IMG/VR virus record: IMGVR_UViG_3300030503_000156
Span: 1 to 43,201 of that record
DNA: 43,201 bases
Direction: 5' to 3' (one strand)
DNA from: a virus
The notes below the pieces were generated by a model, which saw only the letters and a program-made list of their open reading frames with translations, did not search any database and was not told the DNA's origin. The translations under genes were made by a program, and so were the position numbers. Positions 5,598 to 41,258 of this stretch are shown here, piece by piece; the stretch's first letter is position 1; each line of letters opens with the position of its first letter.

Positions 5598-6641
5598 ATG
5601 AAGCCTTATGGCGTTTTGAGCGACACCCACAACCATAACTGGTCGGCATTTGCCACGACTGGCGCCGACGGCATCAACAGCCGACTGCACATGATTCTCG
5701 CGGAAACCGAGCGCTGCGCGGCCGAAGTGCTGAATGCGGGCGGCGACACCATGTACCACGGTGGCGACCTGTTCCACGTTCGCGGCAGTATTGCGCCGAC
5801 TGTATTGAATCCGACGATGGATTGCTATCGCAGCATCATCGAGTCAGGCGTCAACATCATCATCAATGCCGGTAACCATGACCTTGAAGGCAAAGAGGCG
5901 AGCCGCGTGTCGTCGGCGATTACCGCGCTGGAGGGTATCGGCTGCACGGTTGTCAACAAGCCAATCGTCAGGGGTAGCATGATGATCGTACCCTGGATTC
6001 CAAAGCTAGATGACCTGAAGATGACGTTGGAAGTTACAACGAAATTGGAGCGCGCAGACCACGACCTGCTGATTCATGCGCCGGTCGACGGCGTGATCGC
6101 AGGCTTGCCCGATCATGGGATGGATGGCGCATACCTGGCGTCGCTCGGTTACCGGCGTGTTTTCAGCGGTCATTACCATTACCACAAGGAAGTGGCGCCA
6201 AACGTGTACTCGATTGGGTCACTAACGCCGCAGACCTGGAGCGACATCAACGCCAAAGCAGGTTTCCTGATCGTCACCGACGAAAGGGTGAAATGGCACG
6301 CTAGTCATGCGCCGTCGTTCGTTGAGATCGACGCCAGCACCGACCCGGACGATGTGCCGCTGATTGTCGACGGCAACTATGTTCGCTGCCGCATTACCTC
6401 GTCCAAGTCGTCGGACGTGGAAGCGATGCGCGAATACCTGACAAGCGTTGGCGCAAAGGGCGTCGTGATCCTGCCCGACGTGAAAGCAGCAACGGTCGCA
6501 CGGGTTGGAGCAACGCTGACGGCCGGGTCGTCGCTGGAAGACAGCATCAACGGCTATGTCAACACGCTCGGACACAAGAACGGCGGGCTGGTCGGTGCGC
6601 TGTGTCAGGACATCTTGAACACGGTAAGGAGCGTGGCATGA
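5598..6641 (+). CDS. SbcD/Mre11-like nuclease subunit (T4 gp47 type)
   Basis: 347 aa, the size of T4 gp47. Metallophosphoesterase motifs in order: SDTHNHN (9-15), GGDLFH (near 54-59), NAGNHD (near 93-98), a His in LLIHAP (near 158), and SGHYHYH (near 190-196). With its SbcC-like partner two genes downstream it should form the complex that resects double-strand ends and feeds ssDNA to UvsX. A strong AGGAGGGA ribosome binding site precedes the ATG. It ends in an ATGA overlap with the next gene. Confidence 0.88.
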   Translation: MKPYGVLSDTHNHNWSAFATTGADGINSRLHMILAETERCAAEVLNAGGDTMYHGGDLFHVRGSIAPTVLNPTMDCYRSIIESGVNIIINAGNHDLEGKEASRVSSAITALEGIGCTVVNKPIVRGSMMIVPWIPKLDDLKMTLEVTTKLERADHDLLIHAPVDGVIAGLPDHGMDGAYLASLGYRRVFSGHYHYHKEVAPNVYSIGSLTPQTWSDINAKAGFLIVTDERVKWHASHAPSFVEIDASTDPDDVPLIVDGNYVRCRITSSKSSDVEAMREYLTSVGAKGVVILPDVKAATVARVGATLTAGSSLEDSINGYVNTLGHKNGGLVGALCQDILNTVRSVA

Positions 6642-24888: not shown

Positions 24889-25169
24889 CTTTGCCTGTCA
24901 TTCTCCAAAGTAGGTGCGCTAGTCGCGCGCCCACAAATTGTCATCAGTCAAAACGCAGCCGTTAGCCGACACGGACGTAGCCTGCATTTCCCGTTACTGT
25001 GCCGAAGGTGGGGCGTCATACTTCAATCATCGAAACAACAAGCAGACTAAACAAGCGGGGCAGGTAAAGAAAAGCAGCCAAGTGATTCAGTTGCGACGCC
25101 ACTACCCGATTGAGAAACTGATTGTGTTGTATCGAAATTAGCGCAATTCAACCTATTGAGGAGATTCAC

Positions 25170-26042
25170 ATGACATTAGCAACAAACGCCGCAGTTGAAG
25201 TTCTCGTTGGAGACGACAGCAACATGATCGACGAATTGCTCGCCGGTCTGTCCGACGAGATTGAAATTGAAGGCTTCAATGCCGACGGCGGGGAAGTGAT
25301 CGAGTCGGTGATCGAAGCCGCGATGCCTTTGGTCGACGAAGCCGCGCTCGAAGCCGCTATCGAGGGTGTTGAGCGTAAGGAAGCGAAACAGGCGCTTTAC
25401 GCCCAGCAGAAGTCGAATGACGCCAGCGATGGTGTTGCGCCAGAAACAACGGTCGAGAGCTTGACGACCCCGGCAGATCCAAAAGCGAAGAAGTCGAAGG
25501 AGGCCAAGCAACCGAAGCCACCAAAGGAGCCGAAGGAAAAGAAGGCGCCGGTGCCGACCTCGGTCTCACACAAGCCAGGCGATCTGTTGCTTGCCAAGCT
25601 CGGTGCCGCCGCAAACGACTACTTGGTCTTCAGCTTGGCAGACGCCGGTTCGTTATCGAACGAGGAACTGGCGGTAAAGCGCGCTGAATTCGTCGAAGTC
25701 ATGAACAACCGGGAAGGCATTGCCATCAAGGTTAAGGAAAAGGCGATTCAGCTCTTCACGACACTGGTCAAGGGTGGACAGATGAACAAGGTCATGGCTG
25801 CGGCCTTCATGTTGTTGGCGACAGAGGGTAGCTTGACATCGGGCGGCAAGGGCAACTTGGAGACAGCATTGCGCGCATCCGGTTTGTCCGAGCGCACGTC
25901 GGCATCGCAAAGCAATCAAATCTTCATGCTCTTGCCGCTGTTGAATCTGACGGTCAAGTCCAAAGGGGTCATGTCACCAAATCCCGATAGCGCCTTGCTG
26001 CCGACGATCTATGCGAATCAAGGCTTGACGCAAGCGGTTTAA
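25170..26042 (+). CDS. hypothetical protein: acidic N-terminus, Lys/Pro linker, helical C-domain
   Basis: 290 aa, unrecognised. The ATG at 25170 is set by GAGGAG six bases upstream. N-terminal 90 residues are acidic with an IDELLAGLSDEIEIE peptide similar to the acidic ends of the SSB and UvsY-like proteins. A linker near 100-130 is rich in Lys, Pro and Glu (KQPKPPKEPKEKKAP). The last 150 residues are a helical globular domain (SHKPGDLLLAKLGAAANDYL). Its length and composition suggest an abundant DNA-associated or scaffold protein, as an inference. Confidence 0.72.
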   Translation: MTLATNAAVEVLVGDDSNMIDELLAGLSDEIEIEGFNADGGEVIESVIEAAMPLVDEAALEAAIEGVERKEAKQALYAQQKSNDASDGVAPETTVESLTTPADPKAKKSKEAKQPKPPKEPKEKKAPVPTSVSHKPGDLLLAKLGAAANDYLVFSLADAGSLSNEELAVKRAEFVEVMNNREGIAIKVKEKAIQLFTTLVKGGQMNKVMAAAFMLLATEGSLTSGGKGNLETALRASGLSERTSASQSNQIFMLLPLLNLTVKSKGVMSPNPDSALLPTIYANQGLTQAV

Positions 26043-33335: not shown

Positions 33336-33701
33336 AGGGATATACGGGAGGGAAGATGCAAGGGGAAAGCGAGCGCCGGCGAGCGTGATTGCGTAGGGCT
33401 AGTCCTTGATCGGCAGGCCAGGCAATGAGAGATATGCGGGAGGGGAGGGCGCCTGGTGGGAGTGGGTATAAGTATGGGGAAAATAGGCGAGCGTGGTCGG
33501 CTTGTTCTTCGGCGCCTTCCTCCCAACTCTACTTACACATCACGCTCGGCAAGCCTCGCTCAACCACCCACCGCATCGATCGATCCTGCCACCCGCCAAA
33601 AACGCTCACGCTCACATCGCCGGCACAAATCACGTCTTACACATTGATTATAGTCGGCATCAGGCTACCCAGAAATCATTATTTACAGAAAGACAGAATT
33701 C
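33335..33701. other. intergenic block with purine-to-pyrimidine switch
   Basis: No supportable gene. The plus strand is purine-rich to about 33490, then pyrimidine-rich from about 33510. A direct repeat, GAGGGATATACGGGAGGG at 33335 and GAGAGATATGCGGGAGGG at 33427, lies in the first half. Together with the repeats at 33842 it may be part of an origin. Confidence 0.5.
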
Positions 33702-33842
33702 ATGGAAAAGCTCAAAATCGCCATTCCGCGACGCAAACGACGTGCCGGCGTGATGCCGACCAAGACCGAGCGCGACAAGTCGAAGGATCATCAGCGGTTG
33801 GGGAAACACAAGCAGAAACCGGATCACTTGAGGCAGGACTGA
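33702..33842 (+). CDS. 46-residue very basic protein
   Basis: MEKLKIAIPRRKRRAGV, then KTERDKSKDHQRLGKHKQK. Net charge is strongly positive, suggesting nucleic-acid binding. AGAAAGA before the ATG is a weak site; TTTACAGAAA upstream matches the leader family of 14133. Its stop codon touches the first iteron-like repeat. Confidence 0.52.
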   Translation: MEKLKIAIPRRKRRAGVMPTKTERDKSKDHQRLGKHKQKPDHLRQD

Positions 33843-33911
33843 CTTGGGGCCGGAGCCTGCTCGACTTGGGGTTACATCGACTTGGGGCCGGTTTGGTGTA
33901 CTTGGGGCCGG
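33842..33911 (+). repeat. four 12-bp direct repeats (iteron-like)
   Basis: ACTTGGGGCCGG at 33842, 33880 and 33900, and ACTTGGGGTTAC at 33864. Spacings are 22, 16 and 20 bp, near two helical turns. An inverted CCCCAAGT lies at 33987-33994. This is the layout of an iteron-type replication origin. Confidence 0.7.
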
Positions 33912-34229
33912 AGGCTCTATCATAAAGTCTTATTAAAACCTTTAAACCTATTACTACTTACTTATTAAGGCGAAAGTATAAGATTCCCCCAAGTGATTTT
34001 CACCCCAACAATAGCGCGGCTCCAAGGCAACGACGGCGCCAGGCTTTTCATAAATTTCACGTACAGGCGGATCGACTCAAGCGGGCCTGCACGCGCTCCT
34101 CGGCGATTCACCGCTAGGCAGATACCGGAATCGTGCCGGGGCGACCGTCAGGCTGCTGAAATCAAGCCGAACCGGTGCCAAGACGCGATAGCTATACTGT
34201 CTTCACTCAAACAACACGCGACGACCATC
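33842..34229. other. candidate replication origin region
   Basis: No gene in this stretch. It holds the iteron-like repeats, then an AT-rich tract (33915-33985) with TTATTAAAACCTTTAAACC, a half-copy of the palindromic box on the minus strand (TAAGTAAGTAGTAA, 33951-33964) and the inverted repeat unit. The rest to 34229 shows nothing clear apart from TATACT at about 34193, a possible -10 for the next gene. The Rep protein is not identified. Confidence 0.55.
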
Positions 34230-34430
34230 ATGAAGCCACTTCTGCTCACCATCTTGATACTGACAACCGGATCGGCATTTGCACGCGGCGGCCATTCAAC
34301 ATTACCAGGCGCCAAAATCGATGTCGTCCGATCCGACGCCGCAGTCAAGCATGCGGAATCGATCAGGAAGACGCGTCGTCAGGAAGAGCGCAATGAAAAG
34401 CGTCTTGAGAAGCTATTTGCCGCCCATTGA
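34230..34430 (+). CDS. small secreted protein
   Basis: 66 aa. A signal peptide (MKPLLLTILILTTGSAFA, cleavage after residue 18) is followed by a soluble basic helix (ESIRKTRRQEERNEKRLEKL). No lipobox, so it is probably a periplasmic protein. Function unknown. The ribosome binding site is weak. Confidence 0.62.
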   Translation: MKPLLLTILILTTGSAFARGGHSTLPGAKIDVVRSDAAVKHAESIRKTRRQEERNEKRLEKLFAAH

Positions 34431-34537: not shown

Positions 34538-34555
34538 CTGCATCGGGTGATGCAG
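34538..34555 (+). repeat. leader hairpin CTGCATC-GGGT-GATGCAG, copy 1
   Basis: Seven-bp perfect stem with a 4-base loop, followed by ACAACCAGA. The same element (CTGTATC-GCGT-GATGCAG, then ACAACGAGA) precedes the gene at 35860. Each ends about 20-25 bases before a start codon. Confidence 0.65.
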
Positions 34556-34577: not shown

Positions 34578-34718
34578 ATGAGTGCAATTGACATCGCCTA
34601 CTACCGTAAGAAGATCAAGCAAATGGGCCGCTGGATTGGCGCGCGCTATTTGCGCAACAAGGGCATTTCGTTCGAGCAAGCCTATTTCATCATGTTCAAC
34701 TGCCGGCCGAGGTATTAA
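34578..34718 (+). CDS. 46-residue basic protein
   Basis: MSAIDIAYYRKKIKQMGRW, then an Arg/Tyr-rich part ending NCRPRY. AGGGAAG before the ATG. Two bases precede the next gene start. Unrecognised. Confidence 0.58.
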   Translation: MSAIDIAYYRKKIKQMGRWIGARYLRNKGISFEQAYFIMFNCRPRY

Positions 34719-35504: not shown

Positions 35505-35859
35505 AGTCATTAGCGCTGGAGCCTATGTGGCGCCAACCTTATCAGGAGTGGCATTCCTGCACACATAAGGCGGTTTGGTCAGTTCGGCATCAAGCGCTCG
35601 GATCGGCGCCTAAATGCGTCAAATCCTAGGATCGGTCGAAAATCCTCGGAATCGCCTACTGATATGAATGTGCAGGCGTGCATGTGCGAATATCATGCTT
35701 TTATTTGGAGCGTCAAGTGATTTTTACGTGTCCGCGTTAAAACAACATGCAAAAATAAATCACACAAAAGCATGAAAACATATTGCATGAGAAAATAAAG
35801 CATGAGACTATGTGTCTACTGTATCGCGTGATGCAGACAACGAGATAAGAAAGCAAATC
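35505..35859. other. gene-free region with a long hairpin and three repeat families
   Basis: Contains a bulged hairpin (35537-35570: CCTTAT-CAGGA paired with TCCTG and ATAAGG); two AAATCCTNGGAW words (35621, 35640; a third at 32492); and an AT-rich part (35695-35812) with repeated GCATGA next to A/T runs. The second leader hairpin (35819-35836) precedes the gene at 35860. No coding frame is supported before that gene. Confidence 0.5.
35819..35836 (+). repeat. leader hairpin CTGTATC-GCGT-GATGCAG, copy 2
   Basis: Second copy of the element at 34538; the stem has one G-T pair. The shared block extends from TACTG to ACAAC-AGA. Confidence 0.65.
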
Positions 35860-36642
35860 ATGACAACATCGACAACTAAAGCGCTGAGTGAAAAACAAAT
35901 CGCCGCAAACGTAAAACGCGCCGCGACACTCGCAGCGAAGAAACTTGTAAAAGAGCAAGAAATCGCAACACTTGCCGCGCTCGAAGCATTGGTTCAACCT
36001 GAAACACTAGCAGCAATCGAACCTGAAGCGATTGAAGCAATCGCTGAAGAAACAAGCGAAGAAAAGCCCGGTTTTTGCGCTAAGTGGTTGATGGTCTTGA
36101 ATTCGCGTATCGCTGAAGTGTATAGCAAGGACACAGAAAACGTGATTAAGTACATCACGAAATCGAGTGTTGCAATTGACAACACTGCATCAAAGCCACA
36201 CTTTGCTGAAATCGCACGCACTATCATTGTTAAGTCACGTAATGCAGACAACAAAACAAACAAACGCGATTTTGTTGCCGTCAAAGTGCTGGTGAAAGTC
36301 GCACATATCATGTGCGCGCTCGGCCAAGGTTTGAAAAGCGAAATTGACAATCACACACAGATTATCGGCCACCAATTGCGCAAATTGATTTACTTGACGG
36401 CAATAACTGCAAAGGTAATTCAATGCAAACGCATTGTGTATGATGAAATGGATACAGTGCAACAAATCGACCTGAAACACACTGCGAACTACCGGGAGGG
36501 TACAGTATCAACACAGGTATCTAGTTCGCGCCAGGCTCTTGATATTCTCGGTATTTGCTCAATCGTCAAAGGCAAGAAAGATGATGTTATCTCATTGCAA
36601 GAGAACGATCGCCGCAATGATTTTGTTGCATTGTTCGCATAA
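35860..36642 (+). CDS. AT-rich orphan gene, function unknown
   Basis: 260 aa. Base composition is clearly lower in GC than its neighbours, suggesting recent transfer. Residues 1-75 are a charged, Ala/Lys/Glu-rich helical region; 75-200 are a helical basic domain (AEIARTIIVKSRNADNKTNK, VAVKVLVKVAHIM); the C-terminus has TQVSSSRQALDILGICSIV. There is no recognised motif. The AT-rich repeats upstream and the nearby candidate origin make a replication or DNA-binding role worth testing, but this is inference. Its stop codon overlaps box 15. Confidence 0.68.
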   Translation: MTTSTTKALSEKQIAANVKRAATLAAKKLVKEQEIATLAALEALVQPETLAAIEPEAIEAIAEETSEEKPGFCAKWLMVLNSRIAEVYSKDTENVIKYITKSSVAIDNTASKPHFAEIARTIIVKSRNADNKTNKRDFVAVKVLVKVAHIMCALGQGLKSEIDNHTQIIGHQLRKLIYLTAITAKVIQCKRIVYDEMDTVQQIDLKHTANYREGTVSTQVSSSRQALDILGICSIVKGKKDDVISLQENDRRNDFVALFA

Positions 36643-40356: not shown

Positions 40357-40396
40357 CGTCTTTCCTCATTATCGTAAATGCAGAAATGGAGAAATG

Positions 40397-41035
40397 ATGA
40401 TATTTGGAATCCTGAACCAAAAGGGCGGCGTCGGCAAGACCACGCTATCCGTCAACCTGGCCGCATCATTGGCCCGCAATGGCAGCCGCATCCTTCTGAT
40501 CGACGCCGACCCGCAGGGGAGCGCCCTGGATTGGGCGGCGGCGAGGGCCGAGGGCGCAGAAGTGACTGCCTTGTTCTCGGTGGTCGGCCTGCCCCGGCCA
40601 TCTGTCCACAAGGAGATCGGGGCCTTGTCGGCCGGCTACGACCATGTGATCATCGACGGCCCGCCGCGCGTGACCGACCTGGCACGATCGGCCATGATGG
40701 CGTCGGATGTGATCGTTATACCGGTGCAGCCAAGTCCATACGATGTGTGGGCGGCTGCGGAGGTGATAAAATTGGTCAAAGAGGCTTCTGTATATAAGGA
40801 AGCACTGAAATCATGTTTTGTGATAAACCGCAAAATCGCAAATACTGCGATCGGTAGGGACATTGGAGCCGGTCTGGCGGCTTATAGCACGCACGTACTA
40901 AATGCGGCAGTCGCGCAGCGTGTCGTGTTCGCTGAAGCGGTTGCGCAGGGCAAGTCAATTTTCGAGATTGACGAGCGCGGGAAGGGCGCCAGGGAGATCC
41001 AAGACGTCGCAGACGAACTCATAAAGGGGTGGTGA
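40397..41035 (+). CDS. parA: ParA-type partition ATPase
   Basis: 212 aa. Deviant Walker [10 protein letters not shown] near residues 8-16, [12 protein letters not shown] near 36-47 and VIIDGPPR near 84-91. Short, without an N-terminal helix-turn-helix, so type Ib (ParF/Soj-like). Such ATPases position plasmids or prophage-plasmids along the nucleoid. An ATG three bases earlier is possible. The repeated leader CAGAAATGGAGAAATGATGA carries its ribosome binding site. Forms a two-gene operon with a ribbon-helix-helix gene. Confidence 0.88.
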
Positions 41036-41036
41036 A

Positions 41037-41258
41037 ATGGCAACGGGCGGCAAGAAGGTTGTAATCGGGGCGAAACCTAATGTCGCCCGAACGCCAGACA
41101 ATTGGGTCGACGACAAAGCATCGTCCGACCCAACCAAGCGGCTGACACTGGACATACCGGTCGAGTTGCACCGGAGGATCAAGGCCGACTGCGCGGTAAA
41201 GGATGCCAGTATGGTCGAGGAGATTACTAAGCTGCTGGAAAAGCGCTGGCCGAAGTGA
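41037..41258 (+). CDS. ParG-like ribbon-helix-helix partition protein
   Basis: 73 aa, the size of ParG (76). A flexible basic N-terminus (GGKKVVIGAKPNVAR) is followed by RLTLDIPVELHRRIKADCAV and a second helix (ASMVEEITKLLEKRW): the ribbon strand and two helices of RHH proteins. It would bind the site upstream of parA and stimulate the ATPase through its N-terminal arm. One base after the parA stop. Confidence 0.82.
   Translation: MATGGKKVVIGAKPNVARTPDNWVDDKASSDPTKRLTLDIPVELHRRIKADCAVKDASMVEEITKLLEKRWPK

Follow-up and report, generated by a model that had tools for sequence, protein, structure and literature searches.

An iteron-like repeat array beside the weakest duplex of a 43-kb phage record: a candidate lytic-cycle replication origin

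The replication origin of phage lambda combines O iterons with an AT-rich unwinding region and lies inside the initiator gene. For the ~110-kb siphophages and phage-plasmids of the supergroup considered here, to our knowledge, origins have apparently not been mapped outside plasmid Rep modules. Several siphophage-type phage-plasmid groups of ~107–111 kb, AB included, are listed in a review (PMC11652158). The Acinetobacter AB-type phage-plasmid pABTJ2 (NC_020524) is a related ~110-kb element that encodes DnaE, DnaB, a primase and a winged-helix homolog, and carries dense CGGTACAAA-type iterons upstream of repM and dnaB. The Polaromonas RPA-type plasmid pE19SP1 has an annotated gene for replication initiator protein A and, immediately downstream of it, iterons of the sequence CGTCATTTCACCCACC and then an AT-rich tract.

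Here, we analyze an intergenic repeat array in a virus record of 43,201 bases that lacks terminal repeats and makes up the whole window, and weigh whether it serves as a replication origin. As in the lambda-type arrangement, short direct repeats adjoin an AT-rich tract, the phage has its own replication genes (judged by its relatives), and a winged-helix gene lies nearby. In contrast to lambda, the repeats have a 12-bp core at irregular spacings of 16, 20 and 22 bp, an inverted arm lies beyond the tract, the array is not within an initiator gene, and no O or P homolog was identified. The array has no repeat sequence in common with the RepM-iteron origin of pABTJ2, which belongs to a part of the genome outside the window. 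Plasmid pE19SP1, which carries the closest relative of the record's ParA, likewise differs in its iteron sequence and in its initiator, the record having no RPA match.

A repeat array flanking the weakest duplex of the record

The array directly follows a small gene encoding a basic protein of 46 aa (33702–33842, plus strand), which stops at the first exact repeat and has homologs in two relatives, G001 and G019. The motif ACTTGGGG occurs five times in 153 bp, four times forward (33842, 33864, 33880 and 33900) and once inverted (33987), and elsewhere in the 43 kb only once, on the minus strand within a gene (37991). Three of the forward copies read ACTTGGGGCCGG (33842–33853, 33880–33891 and 33900–33911, plus strand), and these are the only occurrences of that sequence in the record; the second forward copy is the variant ACTTGGGGTTAC (33864–33875, plus strand), and the inverted copy (33987–33994, minus strand) reads CCCCAAGT on the plus strand. 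The forward copies are spaced 22, 16 and 20 bp apart, confirming the arrangement described in the original prediction, namely three exact copies and one variant at these spacings with an inverted copy beyond. The sequence itself further shows two degenerate copies, ACTTGAGG at 33826–33833 (plus strand), 16 bp ahead of the first exact copy, and CCCCAAC at 34003–34009 (minus strand), 16 bp from the inverted repeat. With these as the degenerate members, the array contains three 16-bp-spaced doublets (33826/33842, 33864/33880 and, inverted, 33987/34003).

Shuffling of the sequence (60 whole-window and 2000 local shuffles) produced at most three copies of any 8-mer, compared with the five observed within 160 bp. 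The repeats are real and clustered far beyond chance, and the array thereby has one part expected of an iteron origin, at least three clustered direct short repeats. A lineage-specific expansion of intergenic repeats beside an AT-rich spacer, with no function in replication, might also account for the cluster, as other clade-specific short repeats (CCTATAAG and CCTAGG, for example) abound between the genes of relatives and ACTTGGGG is not clustered in most of them. However, the flanks between copies are not duplicated, the spacing is irregular, the motif has not spread through the window, and in G019 it is kept at the corresponding position, next to the weakest duplex of that genome. We consider such an expansion quite improbable.

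A second such part, an adjoining AT-rich unwinding element, lies between the forward and the inverted repeats. This tract (33916–33985) has a GC fraction of 0.243, the lowest of any 70-mer in the window, and contains two copies of CTTATTAA (33929 and 33961). By computed stability, the weakest 50-bp duplex of the 43.2-kb record falls within it (33918–33967), and nothing outside the tract is equally weak, so that the earlier description of this DNA as very AT-rich is strongly borne out. Together with the counterpart in G019 described below, these data are good evidence that array and tract form a putative functional melting element, short of proof that they are an origin.

Our best reading of 33826–34009 is that it may be the phage's own lytic-cycle replication origin, with a probability of about 0.42. 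The region would then be a cis-acting initiator-binding array that flanks a DNA-unwinding element. A DNA-binding protein of the phage would occupy the ACTTGGGG doublets, with their 16-bp spacing, to either side of the tract and strain the weak tract into opening, and the opened tract would load the phage DnaB helicase and primase and become the start of replication. We infer both of these enzymes for the record's phage from their presence in G019.

Other signals of the local sequence were less favorable. A switch in strand composition had been noted upstream of the array, and one is present, as GC skew turns from positive to negative near 33.4–33.6 kb, but its direction is opposite to the usual signature of an origin. 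Cumulative GC skew, proposed as a check on the origin, has a local maximum at the array, and a bidirectional origin there is therefore not favored. The relatives gave no clear skew signal. We found no match to a DnaA box (TTWTNCACA or a relaxed form) in 33600–34250, an interval that thus lacks the host-type boxes of a P1- or plasmid-type replicon, and no IHF site at the array.

Comparison with a family of ~106–118-kb siphophages

Gene content and order identify the record as a fragment of a temperate phage of roughly 110 kb, from a siphophage family with genomes of ~106–118 kb. Relatives of this size were gathered via their class II ribonucleotide reductase, and the gene order of the record matches part of theirs. 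The record encodes a 5' exonuclease, RecA/UvsX-like, SbcD, SbcC and RuvC-like proteins, the class II ribonucleotide reductase, ThyX, a dNMP kinase, a DnaQ-like exonuclease and many small ORFs, together with tRNA-Val, parA and a parG-like gene; gene names without a family-search match were read from translations, and the tRNA was the sole match in an Rfam scan. Four relatives (G001, G006, G013 and G016) have 127-base end overlaps, suggesting that their genomes are probably complete. The terminase of G019 is 65% identical to that of Pseudomonas nickie-like phages, and the backbone of the relatives is similar to that of AB/SSU5-type phage-plasmids (~110 kb), the replicon region of which lies outside the window. 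Family members themselves encode DnaE, DnaB, a primase and a ligase, and so probably require their own origin; Rep3_N had no match in six relatives.

A counterpart of the array was present in L233/G019 (109.6 kb), a genome to which the 46-aa protein encoded at 34578 led and in which most shared proteins are 40–73% identical to those of the record. At the syntenic place, between small genes, G019 carries GCTTTGGGG...GCTTGGGGCCGG and then an AT-rich tract. The motif CTTGGGGCCGG is single in this genome and stands at that place, and the tract beside it is the weakest 50 bp of the 109.6 kb and contains AAGTAAGTAGT, which the record's tract carries as its reverse complement. Copy number is lower, one good copy being accompanied by one or two degenerate ones, which is few for an iteron origin. 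G019 is the only relative that keeps core motif and tract at the syntenic place: CTTGGGGCCGG is absent from G001, G006, G013 and G016, occurs in G014 only at another place, and in G001 both flanking small proteins are shared but motif and AT tract are missing from the syntenic place. In G013 and G016, repeat arrays of other sequence lie by AT-rich DNA immediately ahead of the winged-helix gene. The comparison of repeats in related genomes that had been suggested as a check therefore went both ways, with absence from most relatives and partial presence in G019.

Scans of whole collections revealed no comparable array elsewhere. Searching IMG/VR for three copies of ACTTGGGG returned mostly tandem or coding repeats; L006 is a repeat within a gene, and L054 and L093 appear to be other phage regions without Rep. 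Matches to two copies of ACTTGGGGCC among 84,980 prokaryote genomes were chance, tandem or coding, and the one Burkholderiales match that we inspected (L177) falls in a sugar operon, in the gap separating a LacI-type regulator gene from the gene that follows it. A blastn search of the array region against plasmids yielded nothing relevant.

Several other short repeats were observed in this family. Many copies of CCTATAAG and CCTAGG form intergenic clade-specific arrays in L255/G013, L264/G016, L254, L256 and L257, perhaps as promoters or dispersed operators. In the window, CATAAGTCA directly follows the stop codons of three small genes (34431, 34904 and 36640). An inverted repeat, CTGCATC..GATGCAG, is found at 34538–34555 and 35819–35836 of the window, at 57755 and 58608 of G019 and at 6367 of G001; all three have it in the 34578-gene leader, and the window and G019 also have it in that of the winged-helix gene, and it is likely a leader hairpin or operator.

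A conserved winged-helix protein and its upstream element

The original prediction recognized no Rep gene nearby, and no known Rep family was found in searches for Rep3_N and RPA and among the Pfam matches of the ORFs scanned, but a gene 1.85 kb downstream of the array (35860–36642, plus strand) encodes a family-wide conserved protein of 260 aa with a predicted C-terminal winged helix, a candidate initiator or regulator. Members of this protein family occur in 17 viral contigs. AlphaFold2 modeling on 16 aligned sequences gave a mean pLDDT of 86, compared with 37 from the single sequence, and the C-terminal ~100 residues of the model align structurally with many winged helices at middling Z scores of up to 9.2, among them ArsR/MarR-type regulators and the winged-helix domain of Orc1/Cdc6. 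As this fold is common, middling scores to many winged helices indicate the fold and not the function. A Foldseek search against the PDB returned nothing below an E value of 0.001, and a PDB sequence search returned no match. Most members share the segment STQ.SSTR (STQVSSSR in the record) within the predicted winged-helix domain; the segment is also found in phages without ACTTGGGG and hence does not indicate specificity for these repeats. The protein is the nearest candidate binder of the array but may bind something else, as phages without the motif also keep its predicted DNA-facing region. By eye, the C-terminal SASQSN of the protein encoded at 25122–26042, which matches PHROG 3932, resembles the STQVSS of the winged-helix protein, and the two may be distant paralogs.

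A second AT-rich element, with AAAGCATGA repeats (35690–35859), lies directly upstream of the winged-helix gene, and equivalents precede many of its homologs, including that of pABTJ2 (four copies of TTAGTGCAA in AT-rich DNA). It is a candidate alternative origin, operator or autoregulatory site, and since it is more widely conserved than the array, it could itself be the origin. No motif common to all relatives was found ahead of the winged-helix gene, only arrays particular to subclades.

These observations also bear on the possibility that 33826–34009 is a transcription control region, in which operator sites for a regulator surround an AT-rich promoter (TATAAG at 33977–33982, with the inverted repeat right after it) and control the small genes to the right. 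Plus-strand genes stand on both sides of the element, the repeat-bearing AT-rich tracts of relatives lie directly upstream of start codons, and the structural matches to ArsR/MarR-type proteins would suit a regulator. One or two sites would suffice in G019, where a gene for a cI-like HTH protein close to the integrase points to existing regulatory circuits. By contrast, the tract has only weak sigma-70-like matches (9/12), which lie on the minus strand, promoter-like sites are no commoner than in shuffles, the nearest downstream gene starts ~220 bp away, and the weakest 50 bp in each of two genomes exceeds what a promoter needs. We regard transcription control as the main and a serious rival, though somewhat less probable than an origin. 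For the origin reading, the predicted anatomy of iterons plus unwinding element holds and has a syntenic counterpart in G019, while the skew and the want of a match to a known Rep family in these searches speak against it.

Partition genes and the lifestyle of the family

The record also carries plasmid-type partition genes. Its parA (40394–41035, plus strand) encodes a protein 71% identical to ParA of Polaromonas, Xanthomonas and Aeromonas plasmids, and is followed by its partner, a ParG-like ribbon-helix-helix gene (41037–41258, plus strand; Pfam ParG, E value 3e-4, 21.3 bits, just below the cut-off of 21.4 bits), together providing the partition system of a P1- or plasmid-type replicon. ParA was found in only one of 18 relatives (G014, 33% identical), and this near absence suggests that parA-parG probably came from a plasmid recently. 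Two other roles for the array were considered and rejected: a centromere for ParA-ParG, as ACTTGGGG is absent from the plasmids with the closest ParA, and a packaging site, as the terminase gene of G019 lies ~11.5 kb from the motif. No direct-repeat array was found around parA.

Given these genes, the array could be a plasmid-mode, P1-like origin that, together with parA-parG, keeps the phage extrachromosomal, and the 58% identity of the G019 DnaE to that of ~110-kb Acinetobacter phage-plasmids is in line with this proposal. However, neither Rep3_N (PF01051) nor RPA (PF10134) matched anywhere in the record, the flanks of the array included, and Pfam identified no Rep among the ORFs scanned, leaving the iterons without a recognized Rep gene beside them in these searches. 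The phage that carries the G019 element has integrase and repressor-like genes, ParA was not found in it, and the plasmids with the closest ParA are without the repeat motif. In pABTJ2, the RepM-iteron origin adjoins dnaB on its upstream side, well away from the counterpart of the array locus, and the winged-helix locus is separate from it. The plasmid- or P1-type origin first envisaged is thus poorly supported, and we consider it unlikely.

Integration is documented in the family. In a 4.7-Mb Oxalobacteraceae chromosome contig, tRNA-Cys(gca) is the insertion site of a complete relative of ~105 kb (L268–L273; G175 C1, about 1068063–1173077), which is flanked by a 52-bp att repeat and adjoined by a tyrosine integrase. 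Integrase homologs are also present in G019 (a tyrosine integrase), G001 and G016, in a region that the window does not span. The G019 record is probably a trimmed provirus, because it ends exactly at gene boundaries and has an isolate-type name. With integrated relatives, and with the pABTJ2 replicon at RepM/dnaB, one would not naturally expect a plasmid-type origin at 33.8 kb, even though parA-parG in the record are of plasmid type. It is conceivable, if rather improbable, that in an integrating family one lineage gained parA-parG and that the lytic ACTTGGGG origin serves an extrachromosomal prophage without a plasmid Rep.

The ~185-bp candidate, its syntenic counterpart in an integrase-bearing relative and the nearby winged-helix protein make the question of the origin directly testable, and the presence of parA-parG on the same fragment bears on how these phages pass from an integrated to a plasmid-maintained state and back.
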